NCBI GenBank assembly: GCA_012519655.1
Contig: JAAYPS010000142.1
Coordinates: forward strand, 1 to 41,980
Length of the DNA stretch: 41,980 bases
Source of the DNA: Clostridiaceae bacterium
Lineage (GTDB): Bacteria > Bacillota > Clostridia > DSM-8532
Direction of reading: 5' to 3'
The position numbers and the translations under genes were made by a program. Shown piece by piece: positions 16,051 through 41,980 of the stretch; the stretch's first letter is position 1, and the number at the start of each line of letters is the position of its first letter. The notes under the pieces were generated by a model, which was given only the letters and a program-made list of their open reading frames with translations, did not search any database and was not told the origin of the DNA.

Positions 16051-16164
16051 AGCATTTTGCGATGTTATATATTTGAATATCGTTGAACAATATATTGTAG
16101 TTATGCATATATGCCACTCATCACATATTGTACAGCTATATTTAATAGTTGCATCGTGAAAGCG
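16051..16164. repeat. Palindromic MITE-like element, 114 bp
   Basis: The left end AGCATTTTGCGATGTTATAT (16051-16070) and right end TAGTTGCATCGTGAAAGCG (16146-16164) are imperfect inverted repeats. Inner TTGAACAATATATTGTAG and CATATTGTACAGCTA are shared with the other copies. It contains no open reading frame and ends 26 bp before the AEC transporter start. Confidence 0.75.
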
Positions 16165-16190
16165 TTTACAAGAAAGACGGCGAGAATTTT

Positions 16191-17159
16191 ATGAATGTTT
16201 TCTTATTTATACTTACTAATAACCTTATTCCCATTTTTACATTAATTTTCATTGGTATCTTAGTTGATAGGAAGTTTCAGCTTAACGTATCAACTCTCTC
16301 AAAACTAAACTTGTATGTTTTCGTACCTGCTTTTATTTTCGTAAACGTATATACTACTCAAATACCTTTGGAAATGCTAAAAGCGCTGGCAATAGCACTT
16401 TTAATTCTTTTTACTAACTGGCTCCTTAGCCTATTGATAGGCAAAATACGAAAGTTCGATGCGAGTATGACCAACGCTTTTGCAAGCTCAATTATGTTTT
16501 ATAATTCTGGAAACTTTGGTATCCCCTTAATTACACTCGTATATTCAAGTAAACCGTTTTTAATAAATGGCGAAACACCCTATCTTGACTTCGCCCTAAC
16601 TGTACAAGTAATAGTCTTGATAGTTCAAAATGTGTCATTGAATACTCTTGGGGTTTTCAATGCTACTAGAGGCACCTCGGGGAGCATCAAAACTGCGTTA
16701 AAAAAATCCCTATCACTACCAGCAATATATTTTGTAATAGCTGCATTTATATTTAAGTTTATACCATATGACTTAACTCAATTTCCTTTGTGGCCTGCAC
16801 TTAATTATGCAAAAAACGGTTTGATATCAATTGCACTGATAACTTTAGGTGTTCAATTATCACATACAAAATTCAAACTAAAAGATCCAAATGTTTACCT
16901 TTCGGTGTTAACAAGACTACTATTAGGTCCAGTAGTTGCACTATTTCTGGTCTTTGTTTTCGGTTTGGATGGTATTATAGCTCAAGTTATGATTATTTCT
17001 GCAGGTTTGCCTACAGCAGTTAATACTGCATTAATTGCAGTGGAGTTTAAAAATAAGCCAGATTTTGCATCCCAGACTGTTATGGTAGCTACACTTATGT
17101 CGTCTATAACGTTGACTGGGGTAATATACTTTGCCACAAAAATGTTCCCGGTGTTTTAG
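16191..17159 (+). CDS. AEC family transporter (auxin efflux carrier-like permease)
   Basis: A 322-residue secondary transporter with about ten membrane segments in two five-helix halves. Bacterial AEC members move organic acids such as malate or malonate, but the substrate here is unknown. The start MNVFLFILTNNLIPIFTLIF places the first segment right at the N-terminus. Family features are SGNFGIPL near residue 106 and GLPTAVNTALIA near 275. I use the ATG at 16191; an in-frame TTG 14 codons earlier lies inside the repeat element. The ribosome binding site (GGCGAG) is weak. It sits on the opposite strand between divIC and yabQ, so it looks inserted. Confidence 0.88.
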   Translation: MNVFLFILTNNLIPIFTLIFIGILVDRKFQLNVSTLSKLNLYVFVPAFIFVNVYTTQIPLEMLKALAIALLILFTNWLLSLLIGKIRKFDASMTNAFASSIMFYNSGNFGIPLITLVYSSKPFLINGETPYLDFALTVQVIVLIVQNVSLNTLGVFNATRGTSGSIKTALKKSLSLPAIYFVIAAFIFKFIPYDLTQFPLWPALNYAKNGLISIALITLGVQLSHTKFKLKDPNVYLSVLTRLLLGPVVALFLVFVFGLDGIIAQVMIISAGLPTAVNTALIAVEFKNKPDFASQTVMVATLMSSITLTGVIYFATKMFPVF

Positions 17160-28812: not shown

Positions 28813-30253
28813 GATGATTTTGAAAAGCCTTGGAGTTGTTATACTTATAGAGGGATTGTGCATGGTACCTCCTCTGATTGTAAGTTTTGTCTATGGGCAG
28901 GACGATGCAGCAGCTTTCATAATTTCGATAATTCTCTGTGCTGTAATCGGATTTTCACTCTATACTATACACATAAAAAACATCAATTTTTATGCGCGAG
29001 ATGGCTTCGTAATGGTTGCACTTGGCTGGGTTTTTATTTCATTATTGGGCTCAATCCCTTTTATACTAAGTAACACCATATCATCACCCATAGATGCATT
29101 TTTTGAGACGGTTTCAGGTTTTACAACAACGGGCTCAACAATATTACAAGAAATCGAAAGTCTACCTAAGGGTATTTTGTTCTGGAGAAGCTTCACACAG
29201 TGGATTGGGGGCATGGGGGTTCTGGTACTGACTTTAGCAGTTCTGCCTTCTGTCGGTGCAAGTTCTCTGCATATAATCAAAGCTGAATCAACAGGACCTA
29301 ATGTTGAAAAGTTAGTTCCTAAAATCGGTCAATCAGCCAGAATACTGTATACAATTTACACAGTTATGACTACTATTCAAGTAATACTACTATTGTTCGC
29401 AGGAATGCCACTGTATGACTCTTTAATACATGCATTTGGAACTGCTGGTACAGGCGGATTTTCATCTAGAAATTTAAGTGTAGGGGCATATGGAAATGTA
29501 TATGTAGAAGTCGTCATAACTGTGTTTACTATACTTTTTGGTGTAAACTTCAGTCTTTACTATCAAATCCTAAAAGGCAACATAAAATCTGCCATTGAAG
29601 ATGAAGAATTTCGTTTTTATATTGGAACTATTACCATCTCAATTATATTTGTAGCTATTAACTTGTATTCGAATGGACTTTTCTCATTTAGTGATAGTAT
29701 AAGGCATTCTTCTTTTCAGGTTGGAACCATAATTACAACAACAGGATATTCAACAACGGACTTTAATCTTTGGCCCACTTTTAGTAAAATGATCCTCATT
29801 ACTCTTATGTTCTTCGGAGGTAGCGCTGGTTCAACAGCTGGTGGAATAAAGTTCCTGAGAATAGTACTGCTGCTCAAGACAGTAAAGCGTGGAGTTACGA
29901 AAGCTTTACATCCCAGAGCAGTGCACACAATAAAATTAAACAAGAAAGTTGTTGATGATAACACAATCAGTAGAACTTTAACTTTTTTCTTTGCATACAT
30001 GTTAATATTTTTAGTATCATTACTACTAATTACTCTTAATGGAAAAGATCTAATTACTTCTGCAACAGCTGTTTTATCAACATTATCTAATGTAGGTCCC
30101 GGATTTGAAGTAATTGGTCCAATGGGTAATTTCTCGGATTTTTCACATGGTAGTAAGCTTGTTCTCTGTTTTAACATGATAGCAGGAAGACTTGAATTAC
30201 TTCCCATGTTATTACTTTTTTCTCCCACTGCTTGGAAAAAAGCAAGCATATAA
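28802..30253 (+). CDS. trkH: Trk potassium uptake channel subunit TrkH
   Basis: K+-translocating membrane subunit, 483 residues, with four M1-P-M2 repeats. Pore-loop segments are TGFTTTGSTIL (about 105-115), GTAGTGGFSS (about 215-225), TTTGYSTTDF (about 315-325) and LSNVGPGFEV (about 425-435), each with the central glycine of the selectivity filter. I keep the TTG start at 28802 because GGGGGTG lies 6 bases before it; an ATG four codons later has no such site. It overlaps trkA by 11 bp, so the pair is translationally coupled. Confidence 0.96.
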   Translation: MNFRMILKSLGVVILIEGLCMVPPLIVSFVYGQDDAAAFIISIILCAVIGFSLYTIHIKNINFYARDGFVMVALGWVFISLLGSIPFILSNTISSPIDAFFETVSGFTTTGSTILQEIESLPKGILFWRSFTQWIGGMGVLVLTLAVLPSVGASSLHIIKAESTGPNVEKLVPKIGQSARILYTIYTVMTTIQVILLLFAGMPLYDSLIHAFGTAGTGGFSSRNLSVGAYGNVYVEVVITVFTILFGVNFSLYYQILKGNIKSAIEDEEFRFYIGTITISIIFVAINLYSNGLFSFSDSIRHSSFQVGTIITTTGYSTTDFNLWPTFSKMILITLMFFGGSAGSTAGGIKFLRIVLLLKTVKRGVTKALHPRAVHTIKLNKKVVDDNTISRTLTFFFAYMLIFLVSLLLITLNGKDLITSATAVLSTLSNVGPGFEVIGPMGNFSDFSHGSKLVLCFNMIAGRLELLPMLLLFSPTAWKKASI

Positions 30254-30263
30254 ATTGTAAGAT

Positions 30264-30354
30264 AAAATTAGCTGTACAACATGTATGTTATGCTTCCGCA
30301 TATAACAACAATATTGTACAGCAGAACTTAAAGTATGCAACATCGTGAAATGCT
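30264..30354. repeat. Palindromic element copy, inverted and one end worn
   Basis: The end GCAACATCGTGAAATGCT (30337-30354) is the reverse complement of the family left end. GCTGTACAA (30271-30279) and TTGTACAGC (30314-30322) are perfect inner arms, with TGTTATGC-TTCC-GCATATAACA inside them. The other terminal repeat is not recognisable. It lies just after trkH. Confidence 0.65.
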
Positions 30355-30438
30355 AAGTTTATTGAAGTAGTATAGCTACACAAAGTAGAATGGTTTTACT
30401 ACTAATCAAGTAAAAGAACCGAGTTGTAAGCAAGATGT

Positions 30439-30474
30439 AGGGACGAGCAACAAACAATGTTTGTGCAAGCCCCT
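30439..30474. repeat. Imperfect inverted repeat before the GH2 stop
   Basis: AGGGACGAGCAACAAAC pairs imperfectly with GTTTGTGCAAGCCCCT (ending 30474), 7 bp from the GH2 stop codon. It could act as the 3' end hairpin of the GH2 mRNA, but no T tract follows on either strand. It resembles short REP-type palindromes. Confidence 0.5.
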
Positions 30475-30480
30475 AAGAAC

Positions 30481-32880
30481 TTAAACATTCTCAATTTTGC
30501 AAGGAATTTCGAGTTCAGCACCTACTAACCCTTCTGCTTTAGCTGTAACCTTTATAGTACCTTCACATCTAGCTGATTCTATATAAATCAGCAATCTTCC
30601 ATTATATGCAGTTCTGAAATGATTTGAATATGGCGTTGTATCTCTTAAGTTACCATTCTCAAGCCCTAATAGAGAACCCCCGCCTTCTACCACTACATGA
30701 ATTTCATCTTGAGCAGAGCTTACAAGCTGACCCTTAGAATCGGTAATCTCGGCTATAACATGTGTTATATCTTTTCCGTCAGCTTTTAGGCATTCGTCAA
30801 TGCTCACCAATCTTATATTTGATGCAGAACCTACTGTTGATAAAACGTTAGTGACCTTATCTTGCTTCTCATTTCTACCAACAGCTTTTAATTCACCTTC
30901 AGTAAAGGGTACAATCCAAGTTAAATAGCCCTCTGGACAATCTTTTAACTGTTTAATACCATAGGATTTGTCGTTAATAAACAGCTCTGTTTCGTCACAG
31001 TTGGTAAAACAAATAACATGGATCATATCTTGTTCGGAGTAATTCCATGAACAGGATATACCATCGGTGTATGAGAAGTTTTCGCCTTTAGGTTCTACAT
31101 GTGATGTAAAGAGCTGAATCATTGGCGCATCCGACCATAAACTCTTACGGAAGTAGTATATTGGTTTTTTAAACCCAGCTACATCCAAATGCCCGGATTC
31201 AGAACCATGGCTTGGCCAACCCTGTGTTTCTCCAAGGAAGTCGATTCCAGTCCAAAGAAACTGTCCTGATATGAAGTCGTAATCTAGAACGGTCTGCCAT
31301 TCTTTTATGCCTCTTGTGTTTTCACTACCTAAAATAATATTTGCTGGATATTTAGCATGATCTTCTTCATACAAGTGTTCTTTATAATTGTATCCGACAA
31401 CATCGAGACAGTCAGCAAGACCTGTAATATTTGACACTTCAGGAAATGCCAGTCCAGCAGTCACTGGCCTTGTTTTATCCCACTTCTTAACAATCTCCCT
31501 TAGTTTTTTTGCAACAACTACAAGTCTTTCTGCCCTCGGTCTGTTAGGATCATAAAGTCTTTCATTAATAGGTTTATTGGCATCATTGTTCCCTGTAGCT
31601 AATTGATGTGAGGGATGGCAATAAGGATCATTTGGATAATCAATCTCATTTCCTATACTCCACATTATAATAGATGGGTGGTTTCTGCCCCGCAGTACTA
31701 ACTGAGTTAGATCTGCCTCATGCCATTGTGGAAAATCCTCATAGTAGCCGTAATGGGCAGGAGGATATACATTATGGCCTTTTACCCATTTGTTTTTTAC
31801 ACCTTCCCACTCGTCAAAAGCTTCATCTATTACAAGAAAACCCATTTCATCACACAAATCATATAATTCTGGCATATGAGGATTGTGGCTCATACGAATC
31901 GAGTTGCATCCCATTTCCTTTAAAGCATTAAGTCTTCTTTCCCATACTTTTTTCCTAACAGCTGCTCCAAGACAACCAGCATCATGGTGTATGCAAACTC
32001 CCTTTAATTTCATCCCTTTGCCATTAAGGAAGAAGCCTTTGTCGGGATGGAAATTAAAAGTTCGTATACCGGTATTTATTATTTCACAATCAATAACTAC
32101 TCCATCTTTTTTAATCTCTGTGATGCATTTATATAAAAAAGGATCCTCAGGTGACCATAGTCTTGGAGAAGTTACATTCAATGTTTGCATATCGACAGCT
32201 TCACCATCACCATATATTTTGCATAAATTCTCTGTTGAAGCCACTATATCTTCTCCGGAATAAAAAGTATGGCTAATTGAAACATTTGCATTAGTATTGG
32301 TTGTATTTTTCACAGTAGTTTCTATTTCTATTAGTGCACTTTCCTTACTAGCGCTTTTAGTCGATACGAACACACCGTTTATTGGTGCAAATACTTTGTT
32401 TTTTAATACTACTGTTACTTTTCGATAAATTCCAGATCCAGTATACCACCTTGAATCTGCAATATATCTGTGATCAACTTTTACCGTTAAAACATTTGGC
32501 GTATCTCCAAAACATGCAAAATCGGTAATATCATAAATAAATTCAGTATAACCATATGGCCTCTTCCCAAGATAATAACTATTACACCACACCATACTGT
32601 TATTGTATACACCATCGAAAACTACATAAACACGCATGCCTTTGTACTCTTCAGGAAGATAAAACATTTTTCTGTAATAACCAGTACCGCCAGGAAGATA
32701 TCCTGTACCACTCGAATTTGAAATTGAAAACGGATGCTCCACAGCCCAATCATGGGGTATATTCACAGTCCGCCACGAACTATCATCATAACCTTTAAAC
32801 CATGCATACTGCTCCTCACCCAAATAAAACTTCCAATCCAAACATAAATCAATTTTTTTATGTGCAATTTTTGTATTCAT
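30481..32880 (-). CDS. GH2 family beta-galactosidase-like glycosidase
   Basis: Retaining beta-glycosidase of 799 residues without a signal peptide. It has a sugar-binding jelly roll (about 10-160, with NIPHDWAVE, GTGYYRK and RWYTGSGIYRKV), an immunoglobulin-like domain (about 165-275), a TIM barrel (about 285-590) and C-terminal beta domains. The acid/base is the Glu of WSIGNE (residue 412) and the nucleophile is the Glu of LGSENTRG (residue 520). HHDAG and RMSHNPH are typical. Beta-galactosidase is most likely; related members act on galactans or glucuronides. An ATG (32880) or a GTG two codons earlier can serve as start, both after AAGGA. It follows the transporter operon behind a terminator. 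Confidence 0.93.
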   Translation of the reverse strand: MNTKIAHKKIDLCLDWKFYLGEEQYAWFKGYDDSSWRTVNIPHDWAVEHPFSISNSSGTGYLPGGTGYYRKMFYLPEEYKGMRVYVVFDGVYNNSMVWCNSYYLGKRPYGYTEFIYDITDFACFGDTPNVLTVKVDHRYIADSRWYTGSGIYRKVTVVLKNKVFAPINGVFVSTKSASKESALIEIETTVKNTTNTNANVSISHTFYSGEDIVASTENLCKIYGDGEAVDMQTLNVTSPRLWSPEDPFLYKCITEIKKDGVVIDCEIINTGIRTFNFHPDKGFFLNGKGMKLKGVCIHHDAGCLGAAVRKKVWERRLNALKEMGCNSIRMSHNPHMPELYDLCDEMGFLVIDEAFDEWEGVKNKWVKGHNVYPPAHYGYYEDFPQWHEADLTQLVLRGRNHPSIIMWSIGNEIDYPNDPYCHPSHQLATGNNDANKPINERLYDPNRPRAERLVVVAKKLREIVKKWDKTRPVTAGLAFPEVSNITGLADCLDVVGYNYKEHLYEEDHAKYPANIILGSENTRGIKEWQTVLDYDFISGQFLWTGIDFLGETQGWPSHGSESGHLDVAGFKKPIYYFRKSLWSDAPMIQLFTSHVEPKGENFSYTDGISCSWNYSEQDMIHVICFTNCDETELFINDKSYGIKQLKDCPEGYLTWIVPFTEGELKAVGRNEKQDKVTNVLSTVGSASNIRLVSIDECLKADGKDITHVIAEITDSKGQLVSSAQDEIHVVVEGGGSLLGLENGNLRDTTPYSNHFRTAYNGRLLIYIESARCEGTIKVTAKAEGLVGAELEIPCKIENV

Positions 32881-32900
32881 ACCCACCCAAATCCTTAATT

Positions 32901-33020
32901 AGCATTTTACGATGTTACATATTATGAGTTTCTGCTGTATAATAAATTTGGTTTACATATAAGCGTTTCCAATACTCTATTCAACAGCTAATTATTGTTA
33001 AGGTTACATCGCAAAAACCT
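32901..33020. repeat. Palindromic MITE-like element, about 120 bp
   Basis: Left end AGCATTTTACGATGTTACAT (32901-32920) and right end AGGTTACATCGCAAAAACCT (33001-33020) are imperfect inverted repeats. Inner GCTGTATAATA and TCAACAGCTAATTATTG match the other copies. It fills the gap between GH2 and the transporter terminator, so GH2 may be transcribed from within or through it. TTGGAAACGCTTATA read on the minus strand is one base off a cre-like site. Confidence 0.75.
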
Positions 33021-33030
33021 TTAATAAATT

Positions 33031-33059
33031 GACAGGCTATCACTGACAGATAGCCTGCC
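33031..33059 (-). terminator. Hairpin after the binding-protein gene
   Basis: GACAGGCTATC (33031-33041) pairs with GATAGCCTGCC (33049-33059), one mismatch at the base, 12 bp after the stop codon of the binding-protein gene. The T tract on the minus strand is poor (AATTTATT). Confidence 0.65.
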
Positions 33060-33070
33060 AATTCAGTTTT

Positions 33071-34678
33071 CTATAGAGAATTCTTAAATTCTGTTAGTTG
33101 CTTCTGTACTTCATCAAGTACCTTTTGGTATCCAGCCATTTCAAGTTCGGCGCGGAATTCTTTCACCACAGTTTCAGGATCTCCTGCCTTACCAACACTA
33201 ATGGCAGGTAGATATCTGTTCACAACATCACTCAATGCTGCAAGTTCACTCTCAACTGGTGACTTATCAAAAACAAATCTACCATATCTGTATGGTTTTG
33301 CATATGTTTCGAAATCAGCATATAGTTCTTCATAGTTATCAATCCAAGTAGTACTTGGGAATGCCAATTCAAATTTGTCCATACGTCCACCCCAGAAGTT
33401 GGATGAAAAACCGTGCTGGTCTGTTACAAATCCTTCTGGAAGGTCTCTTTGTCCTTTATCATTAATAACATACTGAACTCCTTCAATACCCCAGTTGAAG
33501 AGTTTATACATTGTTTCGTCATTTCTGATTAAATCATATACCATAAGAGCTCTCTCAGGATTTTTACAGTTTGCAGCAATGGCTGTAGCTCCGTGTGTAA
33601 TTGACATCTTGGTTAAGTTTTTGCTTTCTTCAGCCCATGGGAAAAACTGTAAATCAGCACCTGGAACTTCTCTTTCTAATTCTTTGTAAGCAGATACATA
33701 CGTCTGAGTATGATGTTGACGTACTCCTGTTAAGCCAGCCTTAAATTGAACCCAGGTATCAGCGGTATTGTTGAGAACGTCCTCTCTCCAATATCCTGCA
33801 TCTCCCCATTCCTTCATTTCTTTAGCAAAGTTAAGAAGCATATCCGTACCATCATCAAGAGGTAAGAAACGTGATCTAACTTCCCACCATTCATCGTCGG
33901 ATTTTCCAAATGCAAGTCCCTCTGGTACAGGATCTATACAGATATAGGATGATTTAGAGTTAGTCCAACCATCATATAGTGCTTTCATGTTGGATGCACC
34001 AGCAATATCAAAGGGTATAACACCCTGACTGCCAAAATTATCTTTTACTCCCTGTAAATAAACTTGGAAGTCATCCCATGAATCTATTTTCTCAGTAATA
34101 CCAAATTGTCTTGCCCAATCACCTCTGTACATATAACCATGATTAATCCATTGTGAATACATATCCTCTGGGATAGCAATAATGTCACCTTTAAATGTAA
34201 CTTCTGCCCAACTTGATTCGGGAACTGTTTCCCATGTAATAGGTGCGTATGTAGGCAAAAGGTCGTTAAGTTCAAGGAATGCTCCCCTTTGTGCATTCGG
34301 CCACATTTCTAACCAGTCAGAAGCTGAATTTATCATATCAAGTCCTTCACCTGTTGCAAGGAGCAAATTATACTGTGTCATGTAGTCTGTCCAGCCTATG
34401 TACTGAACTTCAAGAGCGCAATTTAGTTTGTCCTTTAAATATTTGTCCCATTCAGCTTTAACGGCTTCATATTGTCCGTTGGTAGGTTTATTCCCTAAAG
34501 ACAGATGTGATATAGTAACAAACTTCGATGTGTCTATTCCTTTAGCGTCGCCACTTGATGTGCCTGTTGTGCCAGTACTTCCGCCTTTTCCACCTTGCGT
34601 TGTTGTACACGATACCATTGTCACAGCCAGCATAAGTGCGAAAATGAGCGCAAGAATTCTAGTGAGTTTGCTTTTCAT
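33071..34678 (-). CDS. Sugar ABC transporter substrate-binding lipoprotein (LipO/LplA type)
   Basis: A 535-residue extracellular solute-binding protein. The signal peptide is MKSKLTRILALIFALMLAVT and the lipobox ends at C24 (MVSC), followed by a Gly/Ser/Thr-rich linker (about 27-45). The mature part has the two-lobe fold of large oligosaccharide binders: LAGTGEGLDMINSASDWLEM-like residues near 110-130, and aromatic residues (WTNSKSSY, WEVRSRF, FNWGIEGVQYV) fit for stacking on sugars. It lies 69 bp after its permease partners. The GH2 gene just downstream points to a galactose- or other beta-linked oligosaccharide, but this is inference. Confidence 0.94.
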   Translation of the reverse strand: MKSKLTRILALIFALMLAVTMVSCTTTQGGKGGSTGTTGTSSGDAKGIDTSKFVTISHLSLGNKPTNGQYEAVKAEWDKYLKDKLNCALEVQYIGWTDYMTQYNLLLATGEGLDMINSASDWLEMWPNAQRGAFLELNDLLPTYAPITWETVPESSWAEVTFKGDIIAIPEDMYSQWINHGYMYRGDWARQFGITEKIDSWDDFQVYLQGVKDNFGSQGVIPFDIAGASNMKALYDGWTNSKSSYICIDPVPEGLAFGKSDDEWWEVRSRFLPLDDGTDMLLNFAKEMKEWGDAGYWREDVLNNTADTWVQFKAGLTGVRQHHTQTYVSAYKELEREVPGADLQFFPWAEESKNLTKMSITHGATAIAANCKNPERALMVYDLIRNDETMYKLFNWGIEGVQYVINDKGQRDLPEGFVTDQHGFSSNFWGGRMDKFELAFPSTTWIDNYEELYADFETYAKPYRYGRFVFDKSPVESELAALSDVVNRYLPAISVGKAGDPETVVKEFRAELEMAGYQKVLDEVQKQLTEFKNSL

Positions 34679-34747
34679 ACGAAAATCCTCCTTTTTACAG
34701 TTAAATTATTGAATTATTTTCATATAACCGCCAGGTTATTTGAATGC

Positions 34748-35698
34748 TTAACCCTTCACTGCGCCTACTGTAATTCCTTGAATAAAGTATTTTTGGACAA
34801 ATGGATAAACAAAGATGATTGGTCCTGTAGCTACTACAGCTGTTGCCATTTTCATTGACTCCATCGGGATGTCCACTGCAGGAATATTCGAAGCAGCCGC
34901 TGAATCCCTAATGTAGCGTGCCTCATTAATAGTGTTGTATAAGAATAGTTGTAATGGTCGATATTTTACATTACTCGAAAGAAATAACATTGCATTATAC
35001 CATTCATTCCAATATGTTAATGCAAGAAACAAACCAACCGTTGCGAGAGCGGGCTTTGCTGTAGGAAGTATGATTTTTATGAATATATAGAAATCACCAG
35101 CTCCATCAATTGTTGCCGATTCAGTGATCGAGTGTGGGATGGATTTTAGAAAATTTTTCATAAGAATTATCAGCCATGGTGACATAAGCAAAGGTAAAAG
35201 CACCGCAAGATAGTTGTCTTTTAGCTTTAAAGTTTGTGTTACCATCATATAAAATGGTATAAGTCCCCCTGAAAATAAAGTGGTAAAGTATATGTAAAAA
35301 GATATAATATTCCTAAGTGGGAAGTCGGGTCTTTGCAACGCATATCCAGTCATTGATATGATAAATAAACCTACTAAGGTACCTATAACTGTCATTGATA
35401 TTGTCAATGCATAAGAGCCCAGGATCTGTTCGGGATTATTAAATATCAAATTGTATGCATCGAGGCTCAATTCTTTTGGAATTATAGAAAACCCCTGAAG
35501 TACTATACTTCTCTCAGACGAGAAAGAAGCAGAGATAATAAGAACAAAAGGAAGTATACACAATATACTGAGGAGCCCTGTAAAAGCAACACCTACAATT
35601 TGTATGAACCTTTGTGTCTTATCTACAACTTTTTGCCCACCTGTAGATTTTCTCATATCAATTTTTGAAATCACATCGGTCTGTAAACTATCCTGCAT
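34748..35698 (-). CDS. Carbohydrate ABC transporter permease, LplC/MalG type
   Basis: Channel subunit of the importer, 316 residues, about six membrane segments beginning near residue 38. The ATPase-docking EAA loop reads ITESATIDGAGDFYIF followed by ILPTAKPALATVG, and the C-terminus is QKYFIQGITVGAVKG, close to the permease at 94-1002. I start at the ATG (35698), which has GGGGGTG 7 bases upstream; the open frame runs 13 codons further and would overlap the previous gene. It lies between the LplB-type gene and the binding-protein gene in one operon. A shared MsmX-like ATPase is expected elsewhere. Confidence 0.94.
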   Translation of the reverse strand: MQDSLQTDVISKIDMRKSTGGQKVVDKTQRFIQIVGVAFTGLLSILCILPFVLIISASFSSERSIVLQGFSIIPKELSLDAYNLIFNNPEQILGSYALTISMTVIGTLVGLFIISMTGYALQRPDFPLRNIISFYIYFTTLFSGGLIPFYMMVTQTLKLKDNYLAVLLPLLMSPWLIILMKNFLKSIPHSITESATIDGAGDFYIFIKIILPTAKPALATVGLFLALTYWNEWYNAMLFLSSNVKYRPLQLFLYNTINEARYIRDSAAASNIPAVDIPMESMKMATAVVATGPIIFVYPFVQKYFIQGITVGAVKG

Positions 35699-35711
35699 TA
35701 CTGGACACCCC

Positions 35712-36650
35712 CTAAAACAATGAGTATTCCGGCTCAATTTTCTTAACTATCGTATTTACAGTCATAACGAGAACAAAACCAAACAGTGATTGGAAAAGTC
35801 CCACAGCACTTCCCATGGAGAAATTAAAATTAACATTTAAAGACCGGAATACGAATGTTTCTATGATGTCAGTTTTCTCAAAAAGCGCCATGTTGTTTGC
35901 ACCTGTTAGGTTATAGAATAGCCCAAAATTACCTTTCATTATCCCCCCTAAAGCAAACAATAATAGAATAATAAATGTTGGTTTTAAACAAGGAAGTAAG
36001 ATATATCGAATACGCTGGAAAGCATTTGCTCCATCTATTTCACTAGCCTCCATCATTTCGGCGTCAATTCCCATAATGGCTGCAAAATATACAATGGAAC
36101 CATATCCTGTAGATTGCCAAAGATAAGCCAAAACAATAATTATAGGCCATAATTCGGGTATAGAATAGAAATTGATTGTATTTGCGTCTAACTGTTTTAG
36201 TAGAGAATTAATAAAACCCGTCTGAACATTGAGTAAGTTATAGGCAAATACACCTATAACAACCGCAGAAATGAAATAAGGCAAAAACATAACACTTTGA
36301 GAGAACTTCTTATAAATGTTTAGCTTTTTGCCCACCATCTCATTAAACAATATAGCTACTGTAATTTGTAGAATATTTCCCGTTACAATAAAAGCAAGAT
36401 TATAAAGAACTGTATTTCGTGTTAAAGTCCACAACTGCCCCGATAATGCCAGAAATCGAAAATTCTCAAGCCCTACAAACTCGCTTCCGAATATCCCATC
36501 TCTATAGTTAAATCGAACAAACGCGAGCCAGGCACCTGGCATGGGAAGATAAGAAAAAATAAAAAAGAAAACTATAGCTGGTACACACATAAACAGAAGA
36601 GTTCTCTTCTTGTTAATCTTTTTAAAAACTTCAGCAATTCTACCTTTCAT
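35712..36650 (-). CDS. Carbohydrate ABC transporter permease, LplB type
   Basis: First gene of the transporter operon, 312 residues, six or so membrane segments starting at about 17-35. The EAA loop reads EMMEASEIDGANAFQRI followed by LLPCLKPTF. The opening SYLPMPGAWLAFVRF with EFVGLENFRFL is typical of oligosaccharide permeases of the LplB/YtcP group. GGAGGGG lies before the ATG. The consensus promoter and LacI-type operator at 36670-36717 sit directly upstream, so this is the best supported regulated gene in the window. Confidence 0.94.
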   Translation of the reverse strand: MKGRIAEVFKKINKKRTLLFMCVPAIVFFFIFSYLPMPGAWLAFVRFNYRDGIFGSEFVGLENFRFLALSGQLWTLTRNTVLYNLAFIVTGNILQITVAILFNEMVGKKLNIYKKFSQSVMFLPYFISAVVIGVFAYNLLNVQTGFINSLLKQLDANTINFYSIPELWPIIIVLAYLWQSTGYGSIVYFAAIMGIDAEMMEASEIDGANAFQRIRYILLPCLKPTFIILLLFALGGIMKGNFGLFYNLTGANNMALFEKTDIIETFVFRSLNVNFNFSMGSAVGLFQSLFGFVLVMTVNTIVKKIEPEYSLF

Positions 36651-36669
36651 AAAACCCCTCCGTTCTTTA

Positions 36670-36717
36670 TGTAACCGGTTACACTGATATTATAATTCTC
36701 ACTGTATAATTTGTCAA
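36670..36717 (-). promoter_or_regulatory. Transporter promoter with LacI-type operator
   Basis: On the minus strand TTGACA (36712-36717), exactly 17 bases, TATAAT (36689-36694): a perfect consensus promoter. The 14-bp perfect palindrome TGTAACCGGTTACA (36670-36683) starts 5 bp after the -10 box and so covers the transcription start, a classic repression site. Confidence 0.85.
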
Positions 36718-36800
36718 GAGTTTTGAGTAAATTTACTGGTTTACTGTGCAAATTCACCATTCGACAAGCATAAAACTCTTATAGTAACTGAATTCTGTAC

Positions 36801-36814
36801 TGTAACTGGTTACA
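36801..36814. promoter_or_regulatory. Second LacI-type operator
   Basis: TGTAACTGGTTACA differs from the site at 36670 by one base and lies 131 bp from it, in the tail between lacI and the transporter operon. It could be an auxiliary site for looping. A plus-strand TATAAT at 36824-36829 follows, with no gene to drive. Confidence 0.7.
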
Positions 36815-36902
36815 TAATTCGGGTATAATATGTGTGCCAAAGACATACTAAAACCATTTTTAGAGATTTTTTCCCGTTCTAAGATGGGATAATTAAGGGT
36901 TT

Positions 36903-37958
36903 TTATAATGCAGCTTCTGTTATTTTTCCACAGGAGCCCCTCTCAACAAAGTTCATTTTTAAACTAATATTAGTTACATCTTTCATTGGTTTCTCATCGA
37001 TCATATTGTTTAGAAATTCAACAGAAAGTGAACCTAGTTTTTCATATGGATGCGAAATAGTTGTTATAGACGGCATAGTTATGGTAGAAATAGAGCTATC
37101 GTCAAACCCTAAGACAGAGAAATCACCTGGAACGCTATATCCTTTTGAAATACAAGTGTTTACTATACCAGCTGCTGCCTCATCATTAATTGCAATTATT
37201 GCTGTGGGGAGTTCTTTTTCTTTTAAAAGTTCAAGAATGGATTGTACTCCACCCTGATAATTATATGTGCTTAATTTAATCCATTCATCTTTCATGGTAA
37301 AGTCAAAAACACTTTTTGCCTCATCCAAAGCTTTTAGTTTTATGTCAGTTGACATGATACCTCTTTGGCCACCTAAGAAGCCTATTTTCTTATGTCCCAA
37401 TGAAGTTAGGTATGATACGGCTTGAAACATAGCCTCATGCTCGTCCGAACTAACTGAAGCACAATTATCATAGTAATTCTCCAATTTTCCATTGATAATA
37501 ACAACAGGTGTTGGATAAAAATTGTTCTTCAACAAGTTAACATATTGTACATCGGTCTTTGTTTCATTCACCCGTCCACCTAATAATATTAAACCGTCAA
37601 CCTGTTTTTCACTAAGACGCAAAGTATAGAAGTCCTGCAATTTATTATCACTTAGTGTATTACACAAAAAAACAGTTTGCTCATATTCGGTAGCAGACTT
37701 TTCTATTTCAATAAAAACTTTCGCAAAAAAATGGCTTGTTACTTCAGGCATTATTACTCCTATCGTTTTAGTACGTTGAGTATATAAGCCCCTTGCCAGT
37801 TCGTTGGGTCTATAATTATACTTGTCTATAACATTTTGAACGAGAATTCTCGTATCCTCTTTCACTGCATCACTGTTGTTTAAAACTCTTGAAACAGTTG
37901 CAACTGAAACATTACACTCTCTCGCTATATCACGTATTGATACTTTATTTCTTCTCAT
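36903..37958 (-). CDS. LacI family transcriptional repressor
   Basis: A 351-residue repressor. The N-terminal helix-turn-helix (VSIRDIARECNVSVATVSRVL, about 6-26) and hinge helix RPNELARGL (about 50-58) are followed by a periplasmic-binding-protein-like core (about 65-340). The core has IGVIMPEVTSHFFA, the VDGLILLGG loop and GFDDSSISTITMPSIT. The three palindromes TGTAAC-NN-GTTACA nearby are its probable operators, one at its own promoter, so it likely represses itself and the adjacent transporter until an inducer sugar arrives. The ATG has AGGAGG at a rather long 11-base spacing. Confidence 0.95.
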   Translation of the reverse strand: MRRNKVSIRDIARECNVSVATVSRVLNNSDAVKEDTRILVQNVIDKYNYRPNELARGLYTQRTKTIGVIMPEVTSHFFAKVFIEIEKSATEYEQTVFLCNTLSDNKLQDFYTLRLSEKQVDGLILLGGRVNETKTDVQYVNLLKNNFYPTPVVIINGKLENYYDNCASVSSDEHEAMFQAVSYLTSLGHKKIGFLGGQRGIMSTDIKLKALDEAKSVFDFTMKDEWIKLSTYNYQGGVQSILELLKEKELPTAIIAINDEAAAGIVNTCISKGYSVPGDFSVLGFDDSSISTITMPSITTISHPYEKLGSLSVEFLNNMIDEKPMKDVTNISLKMNFVERGSCGKITEAAL

Positions 37959-38167
37959 AAATCACACTGCCTCCTAAAATACCGCTATATTCTCAAAACT
38001 CAATATACATGCTTATAAAAAATACATATTCCTTATAAAATGTAGAATACGCTTTCAATAATTACAAAATGAATGCTGCCTGATAAACTTCATTAAGAAA
38101 CACAGGCATATAAACGCCTTACAAAACTATTGATTACTATACTTAATGCAATATAACTAAGCAAAAA

Positions 38168-38220
38168 ATGTAACGCGTTACATCCTATTTCATATTACTT
38201 TTTTACTTGGCTTGTGTCAA
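38168..38220 (-). promoter_or_regulatory. lacI promoter with autoregulatory operator and long leader
   Basis: On the minus strand TTGACA (38215-38220), 17 bases, TAATAT (38192-38197). The perfect 16-bp palindrome ATGTAACGCGTTACAT (38168-38183) begins 8 bp after the -10 box, the same layout as the transporter promoter. The resulting leader to the lacI ATG is about 225 bases; apart from the operator nothing distinctive was found in it. Confidence 0.8.
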
Positions 38221-38243
38221 ATAATTAATGATATAGACAAATT

Positions 38244-38284
38244 AAAAAACAGTACTTCTTATGGATATGTAAAAAGAAGTACTG
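38244..38284 (-). terminator. Terminator after the HAD phosphatase gene
   Basis: CAGTACTTCTT (38250-38260) and AAGAAGTACTG (38274-38284) form a perfect 11-bp stem; on the minus strand it is followed by TTTTTTAATTT. It separates the HAD unit from the lacI promoter. Confidence 0.85.
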
Positions 38285-38319
38285 CTGTCTATGTCTTAAT
38301 GCGGACAAGAGCTCTTAGT

Positions 38320-38943
38320 TTATTTCATAACAATTGTCATAAACTCTCTCATGGATTTTACACGAAACTCCACCTTACAATGCGGAAAAAAATTATCCGG
38401 ATCAAAAAGACAACCAACCACTCCTGCATTATGTCCAGCAAGAATATCAATATCCCGATCACCTACCATAATAGCGTCATCCTTGTTCATATTATGTTTT
38501 TTTATGAGATGGTTAATTGCATCGGGTGCAGGCTTTGATAAAAACCCATCCTCGCTTGTTATGAAGTCAGCAAAAAGGTCATCCAGATGGTATTTGCTTA
38601 GATAGTCAATTGCAACATGATCTCTGTGTGTGTATAAATAGTTCCTTCCGCCTAATTCAGTTATTTTTGTTAATACCTCATTTAAGAATGGATATGGTTC
38701 TATTGGAATAAATTCTACGTTACGTTCGTAGGACCTATATATTCTACGCAACTCCTCACCCAAGTTGTGTTTTTCCTGATAATACTTTATACAAGTAGAA
38801 ACGGATATTTTCAAATGCGATAATATTTCATTGCTTGTATGGCTATAGCCAAGATCACTTAGTGCTTGTTGAAATGCCCGAGTCATTTGTGGATAAGAAT
38901 CAAATAATGTTCCGTCAAAATCCCATATATAATGTGAATACAT
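38320..38943 (-). CDS. HAD superfamily phosphatase (phosphoglycolate phosphatase-like)
   Basis: A 207-residue haloacid dehalogenase-type hydrolase. Motif I is WDFDGTLFDS (8-17, nucleophile and acid aspartates), motif II is YLYTHRD near residue 100 (Thr in place of the usual Ser/Thr), the lysine of motif III is in SKPAPDA, and motif IV is MVGDRDIDILAG near 160. A helical cap domain lies at about 20-85. It probably removes phosphate from a small sugar or metabolite. It lies 51 bp after the MBL-fold gene, in one series with it. The binding site is GGGAG. Confidence 0.88.
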   Translation of the reverse strand: MYSHYIWDFDGTLFDSYPQMTRAFQQALSDLGYSHTSNEILSHLKISVSTCIKYYQEKHNLGEELRRIYRSYERNVEFIPIEPYPFLNEVLTKITELGGRNYLYTHRDHVAIDYLSKYHLDDLFADFITSEDGFLSKPAPDAINHLIKKHNMNKDDAIMVGDRDIDILAGHNAGVVGCLFDPDNFFPHCKVEFRVKSMREFMTIVMK

Positions 38944-38994
38944 AAATTAGCTCCCTTCAAGTCAATTTTAAGAATCAACAACTACTTCTTTTTT

Positions 38995-39870
38995 TTATTT
39001 CGCAGCATAAGAATCATAAAGCTCTGTCCGGTAACTACCATTTTCTATAACTATTTTATATGTTCCGTCTTTAGCGATAATATGGTCTTTTACATTTAGT
39101 TTATCTAGCCAAGATCTCGTCTCATCGATTCTCCAAGGACCTGTACCGGCCCCTTTTGAACCCCAATTGTTCTCCCAAAGCCATAGTGGAGTACACCACA
39201 TTGCAAGAGATGGTGAGATCGCTTCATAAACCTCAAATCCAACGCCGCTTTGCCCATGATGTGCAAGTGCAACAATATCGGATTTTATTTTATCTATTGA
39301 ATTGGTTCTTATCAACTTTTCTCCACCCTCAATACCAAGATCCCCGAGGAAAAGTACTGAAACATCCTCTGCAATCATTCTTATTACAGTAGAACTGTTA
39401 TTTACAGCATTTTGGGTAAATGAGGGATCAGTTGTATAAAGTACTTCAAAGCTAATGTTATCTACCGTTACTATATCTCCCTTTTCAACAACTGTAATTT
39501 TATCTTGAAATGCTGGTAATAACTCAACAAAATCTTTTATGGTATGATAGGAATTCGGTTCATTCTCCCTTATAAAATGCGGGTCAGGAAAATGGTGATA
39601 TATCCTATCTATACTGAAATATGTGGACTTATTCCTGAACATTTCTAAAAAAGCATTTATATGGTCGGAATGAGCATGTGTCAGAAACCATGCTGATATA
39701 TGTGGCTTTTTACATCCTGAGACTTTCTCAATAAGATTTAGCAAATAATCAGCATCTGATTTTGTGCCACCATCTATTATGATAATACTTCCATCCCGTG
39801 ACACAATAAGATATGACATCATTTGAGTATGGGACTGCTGTGCAATTTGGTACATATAAGTTTTTTTCAT
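38995..39870 (-). CDS. MBL-fold metallo-hydrolase
   Basis: A 291-residue beta-lactamase-fold hydrolase. The metal motif is LTHAHSDHINAF (HxHxDH) at about 65-76, with VLFLGDLGIEG near 180 and ALAHHGQSG near 210 giving further ligands. It resembles the ComEC-like or competence-type MBL hydrolases more than RNases or beta-lactamases; the substrate is unknown. I start at the ATG (39870, AAAGGA 10 bases upstream), not at the GTG 12 codons earlier. There is no signal peptide. The AraC-type gene at the right edge is 91 bp upstream in the same direction. Confidence 0.87.
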   Translation of the reverse strand: MKKTYMYQIAQQSHTQMMSYLIVSRDGSIIIIDGGTKSDADYLLNLIEKVSGCKKPHISAWFLTHAHSDHINAFLEMFRNKSTYFSIDRIYHHFPDPHFIRENEPNSYHTIKDFVELLPAFQDKITVVEKGDIVTVDNISFEVLYTTDPSFTQNAVNNSSTVIRMIAEDVSVLFLGDLGIEGGEKLIRTNSIDKIKSDIVALAHHGQSGVGFEVYEAISPSLAMWCTPLWLWENNWGSKGAGTGPWRIDETRSWLDKLNVKDHIIAKDGTYKIVIENGSYRTELYDSYAAK

Positions 39871-39961
39871 ATGTATAGAATCCTTTCGTTCATATCCTTC
39901 GCGCACAATTATAGCTCATATAAAAATTTGATCAATATGCGGTTTTTTAAATAAGCGTAAT

Positions 39962-41980
39962 TTATGTTTTTATAGTAACATTACCTTTAGCCTGCTTTCG
40001 CTTCTCACTACGGTATTTTCCCGGGCTAATGCCGTAAATTTGCTTAAATTTCCTCGAAAAACTAGCCAAATCAATGTACCCTACTTTCTCCATAACATCC
40101 CTCACAAGCATATCAGTTTCAATCAATAATCTACATGCTTCATCCATTCTTTTTTTTGTTAAGTAGTCAATGAAGTTCACACCAGAATTATTTCTGAAAA
40201 ACCGGCTTAAATATGAATCCGTCATGTCAAATTGACTGGCAATACCCTTAAGGCTCAGGTTGCGATCCTTATAATTCTTATCAATATAAGACAGGATATC
40301 CTCATATACTGCTTTTTCCTCGTTTTTATTCTGACTTTCTATAATACTAATAATATTAAAAGATAACTTTTTAAGTCGACCCAGAAACTCATTTATGCTT
40401 GTATAGTGAATGAGTAAATCTATTTCTTTTTCTCCTTCATCTAACTTTATTTTTTCTACTATTGGCCACAGGTCCTGAACAATTCCATACACTATAAAGC
40501 GTAGACTAATAGCATCTGAACTATGCTTTTGAGTGTGAAGTAATTCAGATAGTTCGGCAATAGACTCTTCCACAGTAATTATGTTACATTGATTTATGCC
40601 CTGAATAAGCCTCAATTGAGACTTCGATGGATACCAATATGGACTTGAATGTCGCTGAGTTTTTAACTCATCAAAAAACGCTGTAAGATTACCACTATAA
40701 ACAGTAGCCTCTGCAGCCGACACAGCTTCTGTAAAAGAACGGCTGATCATAGAAACATTTTCATATGTATGACCTACCCCCAATATGGGTTCAATGTTCA
40801 GAACATTGTAAAGGGTTTCTCTAATGGTATTGCTTATCTTGGGTATATTGTTATCATTCATATCAGTATTTAGTATTATTGCGAAATAACCTTGATAGTC
40901 CATTTCGATGCAATAATGAGTATAACCCAAGTCTAATGTTCGGATTGATTCAGTTGCTGTCTGTCTTTCAGTAAGTAGAAGCTTACGAGGTGGTTTAAAT
41001 ACTATCACACAAAAATGTGGTCCTGAAAGATCGATTCGAAGGTTTTTCATTTCTTCAGAGAATTTCTCACTACCAAAATTTGCACTATTGGTCAGTATCT
41101 TATGTAGGAAACGCTCGGTAAGCATAGCACGATTTTCCTCAATTTGATTTTTCATTCCCTGATTGCTATCTATTATGGTTTGAATTGAGCTGCTTATCTG
41201 CTTAAGTTCATCTTTATCTTTTGTATTATCTTTCACAGGTGTCATTTTCCTAAGAACCGTATTAATTCGAAGAATTGGTATGTAGTTTCTGAAAGCAAGT
41301 AAAACACCAGAAACAATGCATATAAGTAAAATTACACTAAGAAAAGTAATAACTGGCCTTTTAACGCTAATAAGTCTTCCCGCAAATTGTGAATTGGGAA
41401 ACACAGATACATACGTCCAGTTATTTACATCGGAGCGCATTGCAATTATCGAATGTTTTTCCATACCTATTCTTTTTGTGGTAATTCCGTTATTATCCGA
41501 TATTAGCCTAGAGAGTTCTTCATTACTATATTCGACATTGTTCTGACTGCTAAAAAGAATCTCACCTTTCTGATTCAATATAAAAAACGCATTATCAATT
41601 TCACTATCAATATCGGATAAAAGGTTTTCAAAGAAAGTTGCATCTATTAGCCCTATTATTGTTCCAAAACGACCCGTTTTATTTCCCCAGGGATACGTTA
41701 TTACAGCCATTCTCTGTGTTCCATTTATAGTTAGGAAGCGCTCTGGAGGACTATGCCCAAAACTCGGAGTATCATAAATTAGATCATAGAACTCGCCGTA
41801 GCTCCAATCTCCTACAAGTTGATAGTGAGTATTAAGAAAATAGTCAATTGGCATTACACCTTTGTCGGAATATAATGTCGTATCTCCGCGTATGAACAAT
41901 ATCATTTCATCTAAAAAGTTGGCATGGGAGTGATATGTTTTTAACCTGCTAATGGCTTTATATCTTCCGTATTTTGATTC
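39962..41980 (-). CDS. Membrane-anchored AraC family regulator, N-terminus beyond the window
   Basis: The frame is open to the right edge: the 25 codons before the first internal ATG (41905) have no stop, so the gene is cut at its 5' end. The visible 672 or so residues hold the latter part of an extracellular Cache-like sensor (GKTGRFGTIIGLIDATFF), a membrane segment (VITFLSVILLICIVSGVLLAF), a HAMP-like and linker part, and a C-terminal AraC double helix-turn-helix (IASQFDMTDSYLSRFFRNNS, then VGYIDLASFSRKFKQIYGIS). Such regulators sense an external sugar or its binding protein and usually sit beside LplABC-type transporters; its target may lie to the right. Confidence 0.9.
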   Translation of the reverse strand, partial: ESKYGRYKAISRLKTYHSHANFLDEMILFIRGDTTLYSDKGVMPIDYFLNTHYQLVGDWSYGEFYDLIYDTPSFGHSPPERFLTINGTQRMAVITYPWGNKTGRFGTIIGLIDATFFENLLSDIDSEIDNAFFILNQKGEILFSSQNNVEYSNEELSRLISDNNGITTKRIGMEKHSIIAMRSDVNNWTYVSVFPNSQFAGRLISVKRPVITFLSVILLICIVSGVLLAFRNYIPILRINTVLRKMTPVKDNTKDKDELKQISSSIQTIIDSNQGMKNQIEENRAMLTERFLHKILTNSANFGSEKFSEEMKNLRIDLSGPHFCVIVFKPPRKLLLTERQTATESIRTLDLGYTHYCIEMDYQGYFAIILNTDMNDNNIPKISNTIRETLYNVLNIEPILGVGHTYENVSMISRSFTEAVSAAEATVYSGNLTAFFDELKTQRHSSPYWYPSKSQLRLIQGINQCNIITVEESIAELSELLHTQKHSSDAISLRFIVYGIVQDLWPIVEKIKLDEGEKEIDLLIHYTSINEFLGRLKKLSFNIISIIESQNKNEEKAVYEDILSYIDKNYKDRNLSLKGIASQFDMTDSYLSRFFRNNSGVNFIDYLTKKRMDEACRLLIETDMLVRDVMEKVGYIDLASFSRKFKQIYGISPGKYRSEKRKQAKGNVTIKT

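Follow-up and report, generated by a model that had tools for sequence, protein, structure and literature searches.

A LacI/GalR-family repressor very probably governs a local, autoregulated circuit consisting of its own gene and the neighbouring transporter operon, acting through the palindrome TGTAAC-NN-GTTACA. The window, which is the whole 41,980-nucleotide stretch of Clostridiaceae DNA analysed here, carries a conserved putative operator in front of both the regulator gene and the adjoining operon, and this operator occurs nowhere else in the genome; one relative, G016, is without the lacI site. This interpretation is largely supported because the sites are unique, are conserved together with the repressor orthologue, and were recovered by a comparison that was blind to the motif. 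As read from the sequence, the system appears to be a local LacI regulon of the usual kind, well supported and with a single minor peculiarity, the centre of the operator. It provides a candidate operator for an uncharacterised repressor and would place a transporter, and probably a glycosidase, in one regulon.

Layout of the locus and its promoters

The genes lie on the minus strand and follow each other in the direction of transcription as lacI, permease B, permease P, solute-binding protein and family 2 glycosidase (GH2), an order that is retained in G001 and G002. The features are:

38215..38220, minus strand: -35 box TTGACA of the lacI promoter, invariant in 4 genomes
38192..38197, minus strand: -10 box TAATAT of the lacI promoter (sequence, relatives)
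38169..38182, no strand: putative operator TGTAACGCGTTACA before lacI, GC centre, at about +4 to +17 of an inferred start; exact in 4/4 genomes of the genus
36903..37958, minus strand: LacI-family repressor, 351 residues, recognition helix VATVSR (sequence, domain search)
36801..36814, no strand: third operator-like site TGTAACTGGTTACA (as read on the plus strand), TG/CA centre, weaker, 131 bp from the transporter operator
36712..36717, minus strand: -35 box TTGACA of the transporter promoter, invariant in 5 genomes
36689..36694, minus strand: -10 box TATAAT of the transporter promoter; TATAAT, TACAAT or TAGAAT in relatives
36670..36683, no strand: putative operator TGTAACCGGTTACA, CG centre, at about -1 to +13 relative to the inferred start of the transporter operon; exact in 5/5 genomes
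36655..36661, minus strand: ribosome-binding site GGAGGGG of permease B (sequence)
35712..36650, minus strand: ABC permease B, gene 1 of the predicted regulated operon (domain search)
34748..35737, minus strand: ABC permease P, start codon uncertain (domain search)
33071..34678, minus strand: solute-binding protein (domain search, homologues)
30481..32886, minus strand: GH2 glycosidase, probably of the same operon (domain search, solved homologues; order kept in G001 and G002)

A sequence-only reading of this DNA had described two minus-strand promoters, each with TTGACA, a 17-base spacer, a -10 box and a following TGTAAC-NN-GTTACA, and this arrangement is confirmed. At the transporter, TTGACA-17-TATAAT is followed by a 5-base gap and TGTAACCGGTTACA, and at lacI, TTGACA-17-TAATAT is followed by a 9-base gap and TGTAACGCGTTACA. 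The gap between the -10 box and the palindrome had been given as 5-8 bp; the lower value holds for the transporter, but the upper one should be 9. The promoters had also been called mirror images, which is wrong, as both are on the minus strand, in tandem, and face the same way.

The transporter promoter has 12/12 consensus bases and is the best among 28 promoter-like matches in 34500-40500; the lacI promoter has 10/12. By itself the promoter scan is weak, with 28 matches in that region versus 28.0 in shuffles. The promoters are credible because their hexamers are conserved in relatives, where TTGACA and a -10 box are kept at both promoters alongside the operators.

A structured RNA leader before lacI was considered and rejected. 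An Rfam search of 30000-41980 gave no match, the fold z-score of the leader was -1.86 with 8/200 shuffles equally good, and the distance from the operator start to the lacI gene is 224 bases here versus 76-111 in congeners. Upstream of lacI, window positions 38320-41905 encode a HAD hydrolase, a metallo-beta-lactamase-fold protein and an AraC-type regulator; these three genes had no match in the orthologous stretches of G001, G002, G003 and G016, the last of which is short.

Distribution of the sites in the genome

The exact pattern TGTAACNNGTTACA has three copies in the 2,627,768 bases of the genome, all of them inside about 1.5 kb at this locus, compared with 0 copies of the reversed control pattern. 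The genome scan with the consensus, which the sequence-only reading had proposed as a check, thus gave no exact site at an unrelated gene. Allowing up to one mismatch adds six places, and the resulting total of 9 versus 15 for the control indicates that the one-mismatch sites are background. Five of these six are inside open frames of at least 120 codons. Further regulon members elsewhere in the genome are therefore rejected, and the predicted regulon comprises lacI and the adjacent operon, without further exact sites in the 2.63 Mb genome, in line with the small regulon originally claimed.

The sites could alternatively be catabolite-responsive elements (cre) of the global regulator CcpA instead of operators of the adjacent repressor. 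Among solved structures CcpA is closest to the repressor, and the CG-centred transporter site TGTAACCGGTTACA fits the cre consensus TGWAANCGNTWNCA. However, the lacI site and the third site do not fit it, and the genome shows no enrichment of the cre pattern (8 matches forward and 5 reverse versus 6 and 7 for the control). The repressor scores 228.2 bits with the NCBIfam CcpA model TIGR01481, below the cut-off of 442.35, and even the best protein of the genome obtains 278 of 442 bits, so that none reaches the cut-off. Moreover, the TGTAAC sites track this one repressor gene across genomes, and a CcpA regulon is global whereas the regulon here is a single locus. On score, missing enrichment and phylogenetic pattern CcpA control is rejected, and we regard it as highly improbable. 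It is harder still to believe that the palindromes are accidental or have a different function, for example as RNA hairpins or terminators. The third site of G001 does lie within a perfect 14-base inverted repeat that is followed by a T-rich stretch and, by eye, looks like a terminator after lacI. Yet the two main sites are located at promoters and have no terminator T run, they remain exact in 4 and 5 species despite diverging flanks, and three exact copies at one locus are set against none for the control. Binding by the adjacent repressor remains the preferred explanation.

Some cre-like sequences occur elsewhere. Two such palindromes, 55 bp apart (L057 and L058; contig C81, 4305-4318 and 4360-4373), immediately precede the LacI gene that comes nearest to CcpA in this genome, a gene whose own score falls short of the CcpA cut-off. 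In the window, the cre-like TGAAAGCGTTTACA at 16157-16170 is near the first codons of the open frame 16149-17159 on the plus strand, the product of which resembles a membrane transporter by eye.

Conservation among relatives

Orthologues were searched in 61 genomes, comprising the window's own (G000) and 60 relatives. Close repressor orthologues are present in four, of which G001, G002 and G003 (80%, 81% and 83% identity) belong to the same genus and G016 (73%) to another genus of the family. The exact-pattern search covered all 31 family members among the 60 relatives. Each of the four orthologue-bearing genomes contains exactly two exact sites, and every one of these is at the orthologous locus. 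Among the 27 other family genomes, nine have one exact site and 18 have none, which is near the control level (one copy in 7/27). The operator consensus that had been proposed for the adjacent repressor is supported here, since the sites accompany the lacI orthologue in 4/4 relatives.

The motif-blind comparison asked for blocks of at least 8 bases common to all sequences, in the 350 bases before lacI (G000-G003) and in the gap between lacI and the permease gene (G000-G003 and G016; the G003 gap stops at a contig end). Each region gave one block: the 16-mer GATGTAACGCGTTACA before lacI in four species and the 14-mer TGTAACCGGTTACA before the transporter in five. The longest common block in 1000 resamples from a first-order Markov model was 8 bases for the lacI region and 7 for the transporter region. 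Both main operators are thus exact while the neighbouring intergenic DNA diverges.

In G016 no site within 2 mismatches was found near the lacI start; therefore this species may not autoregulate its repressor. Its two transporter sites have starts 33 bp apart, near the 32 bp at which paired LacI sites peak according to the part of PMC4052901 available to us.

A class-wide draw of 391 genomes, to which G016 did not belong, returned the repressor only from the window's genome, the three congeners and, at about 38-39% identity, G372. A scan of genome contigs for more orthologues gave one locus, matching G016, and 12 plasmid records contained none at 60% identity or above. The LacI gene found in G372 (L083), a member of another family, adjoins a 63% identical GH2, and no TGTAAC site within 2 mismatches was found at that locus; the same kind of enzyme stands there beside a different repressor. 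A literature search with five forms of the operator sequence gave no match under a LacI-family-regulator title in the text that could be searched; 'LacI family', TGTAAC and operator co-occur in a Lactobacillus sakei transcriptome paper, as far as its accessible text goes.

Repressor and recognition class

The repressor consists of a LacI helix-turn-helix domain (PF00356, residues 7-52, 61.5 bits with a cut-off of 27) and a periplasmic-binding-protein-like effector domain (PF13377, residues 181-343, 91 bits with a cut-off of 26.5). In the numbering of PMC2978694 the hinge residues Ala-51 and Leu-54 are present, in the context ARGLY in G000, G001, G003 and G016 and ARGLF in G002. The protein falls in the TVSR class with Ala-16, with V-A at AA-15/16, Leu at AA-54 and Tyr (Phe in G002) at AA-55. 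By our own count from the centre the operator has T-A at NT-5/NT-4. The available portion of PMC2978694 states that in the TVSR class residues AA-15/AA-16 set bases NT-5/NT-4, that AA-54 inserts into the central CG, and that NT-2 correlates with AA-55.

Outside the genus, TGTAACCGGTTACA occurs at 11 exact places in the 391 genomes. Eight are in open frames of at least 150 codons, two are at a LacI gene of G265, and one is neither in a long frame nor near a LacI gene. G265 belongs to another family; its LacI gene (S-A/TVSR, Ala-16) and the next gene, which reads as ribokinase-like, are each preceded by exact TGTAACCGGTTACA. A V-A LacI gene in G031 also has TGTAACGGGTTACA upstream. A separate upstream scan took in LacI loci with a recognition helix readable by the search expression; in the 400 bases preceding the V-A genes L005 of this genome and L035 of G035 it found no site of this kind, which argues against a simple rule. 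As a separate observation, TGAAAGCGCTTACA lies outside long open frames in this genome (L056; contig C32, 54612-54625) and also upstream of I-A-class LacI genes in two other family genomes (L043 and L048); this genome has an I-A LacI gene on contig C187.

Operator centres and the third site

All three sites are even palindromes, and one of them has a CG centre. The sequence-only reading had noted that the centres differ, and this is conserved: the transporter operator has CG in 5/5 genomes, and the lacI operator has GC in the 4/4 that possess the site. These cases are not independent events because the sequences share recent ancestry. The accessible text of PMC4052901 lists, for 1251 even-palindrome LacI regulators, a CG centre in 1173, another pair in 49 and a degenerate pair in 29; a GC centre is on these figures uncommon but not unheard of. 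Both the GC of the lacI operator and the TG of the third site depart from this prevailing CG, a point that counts against the preferred reading. The GC centre of the lacI operator is a real oddity. It may mark a weaker autoregulatory site. More speculatively, and with rather less than an even chance of being right, one repressor could use two grades of operator that evolution has kept apart, namely strong CG sites on the target operon and a weaker or differently bent GC site on lacI, 3-4 bases further from the -10 box, giving separate thresholds for repressor supply and target shut-off. The conserved difference in centre offers a natural experiment on how a LacI-type hinge reads the middle of its site.

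The third site, between lacI and permease B, had been reported at 36801, and it is indeed present and exact at that place; the weight given to it was too high, as it is the weakest in relatives. It could act as a genuine auxiliary operator, forming a loop with the transporter operator, and its occurrence at 133 bp from the transporter site in all three congeners fits this. On the other hand, it has 1, 1 and 2 mismatches in these congeners and was not found in G016, which instead has its closely spaced transporter pair. Furthermore, a spacing of 131-133 bp amounts to about 12.5 helical turns, and the extra C-terminal tetramer helix of E. coli LacI appears to be absent from this repressor. Looping is therefore unlikely, and as an auxiliary operator the third site would be weak at best.

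Proposed mechanism

In view of the above, the 351-residue repressor would bind TGTAAC-NN-GTTACA as a dimer. One operator would cover about -1 to +13 of the promoter of the transporter operon, which encodes the solute-binding protein, both permeases and probably also the GH2, and a second, at about +4 to +17, would lie at the promoter of the repressor gene itself. When sugar is absent, bound repressor could block promoter opening or escape, so that the effect would be repression and not activation. The inducer that releases the repressor may be the sugar brought in by the transporter or a product of GH2 activity. The third, weaker site, which lies 131 bp upstream of the one at the transporter, may make a local contribution. 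Both the transcription starts, predicted near 36682 and 38185, and the placement of the GH2 in the transporter transcript are presumed; the 184-base gap between the solute-binding protein and GH2 genes leaves room for a separate GH2 promoter.

Control of an ABC sugar transporter by the adjacent repressor is largely supported by these comparisons, and the GH2 would probably be included. With the GalA and GalB beta-galactosidase models the GH2 scores 582.8 and 566.5 bits, below the 900-bit cut-offs, and it matches solved GH2 enzymes, several of which are named beta-galactosidase. The solute-binding protein matches generally named solute-binding proteins and, weakly, AlgQ proteins. An oligosaccharide with beta-linked galactose or uronate is our guess for the substrate.

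Comparison with known systems

The E. coli lac operon, in which LacI is the repressor, LacY the transporter, and TG occupies operator positions 5 and 4, resembles the present locus in having a LacI-family repressor beside sugar transport and a beta-galactosidase-related family 2 glycosidase. It differs in that an ABC importer takes the place of LacY here, the repressor gene has an operator of its own, and the operator is an even palindrome with TA at positions 5 and 4. The ribose-type locus of G265 shares the exact TGTAACCGGTTACA before the LacI gene and the next gene, but its recognition pair is S-A whereas V-A is found here, and both of its sites are CG-centred.

Another close parallel is with the local autoregulated LacI sugar regulons surveyed in PMC4052901 and PMC2978694, as far as the available parts of these papers describe them. 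These share the LacI helix-turn-helix with a sugar-binding domain and an even palindrome that overlaps or closely follows the promoter, before the regulator and the next operon, and more than three-fourths of the local LacI regulators are autoregulated in the available text of PMC4052901. Differences are that CG is the rule there whereas the lacI site is GC-centred in four species here, and that the transporter and autoregulatory sites of the present system differ consistently in centre and in distance from the -10 box.
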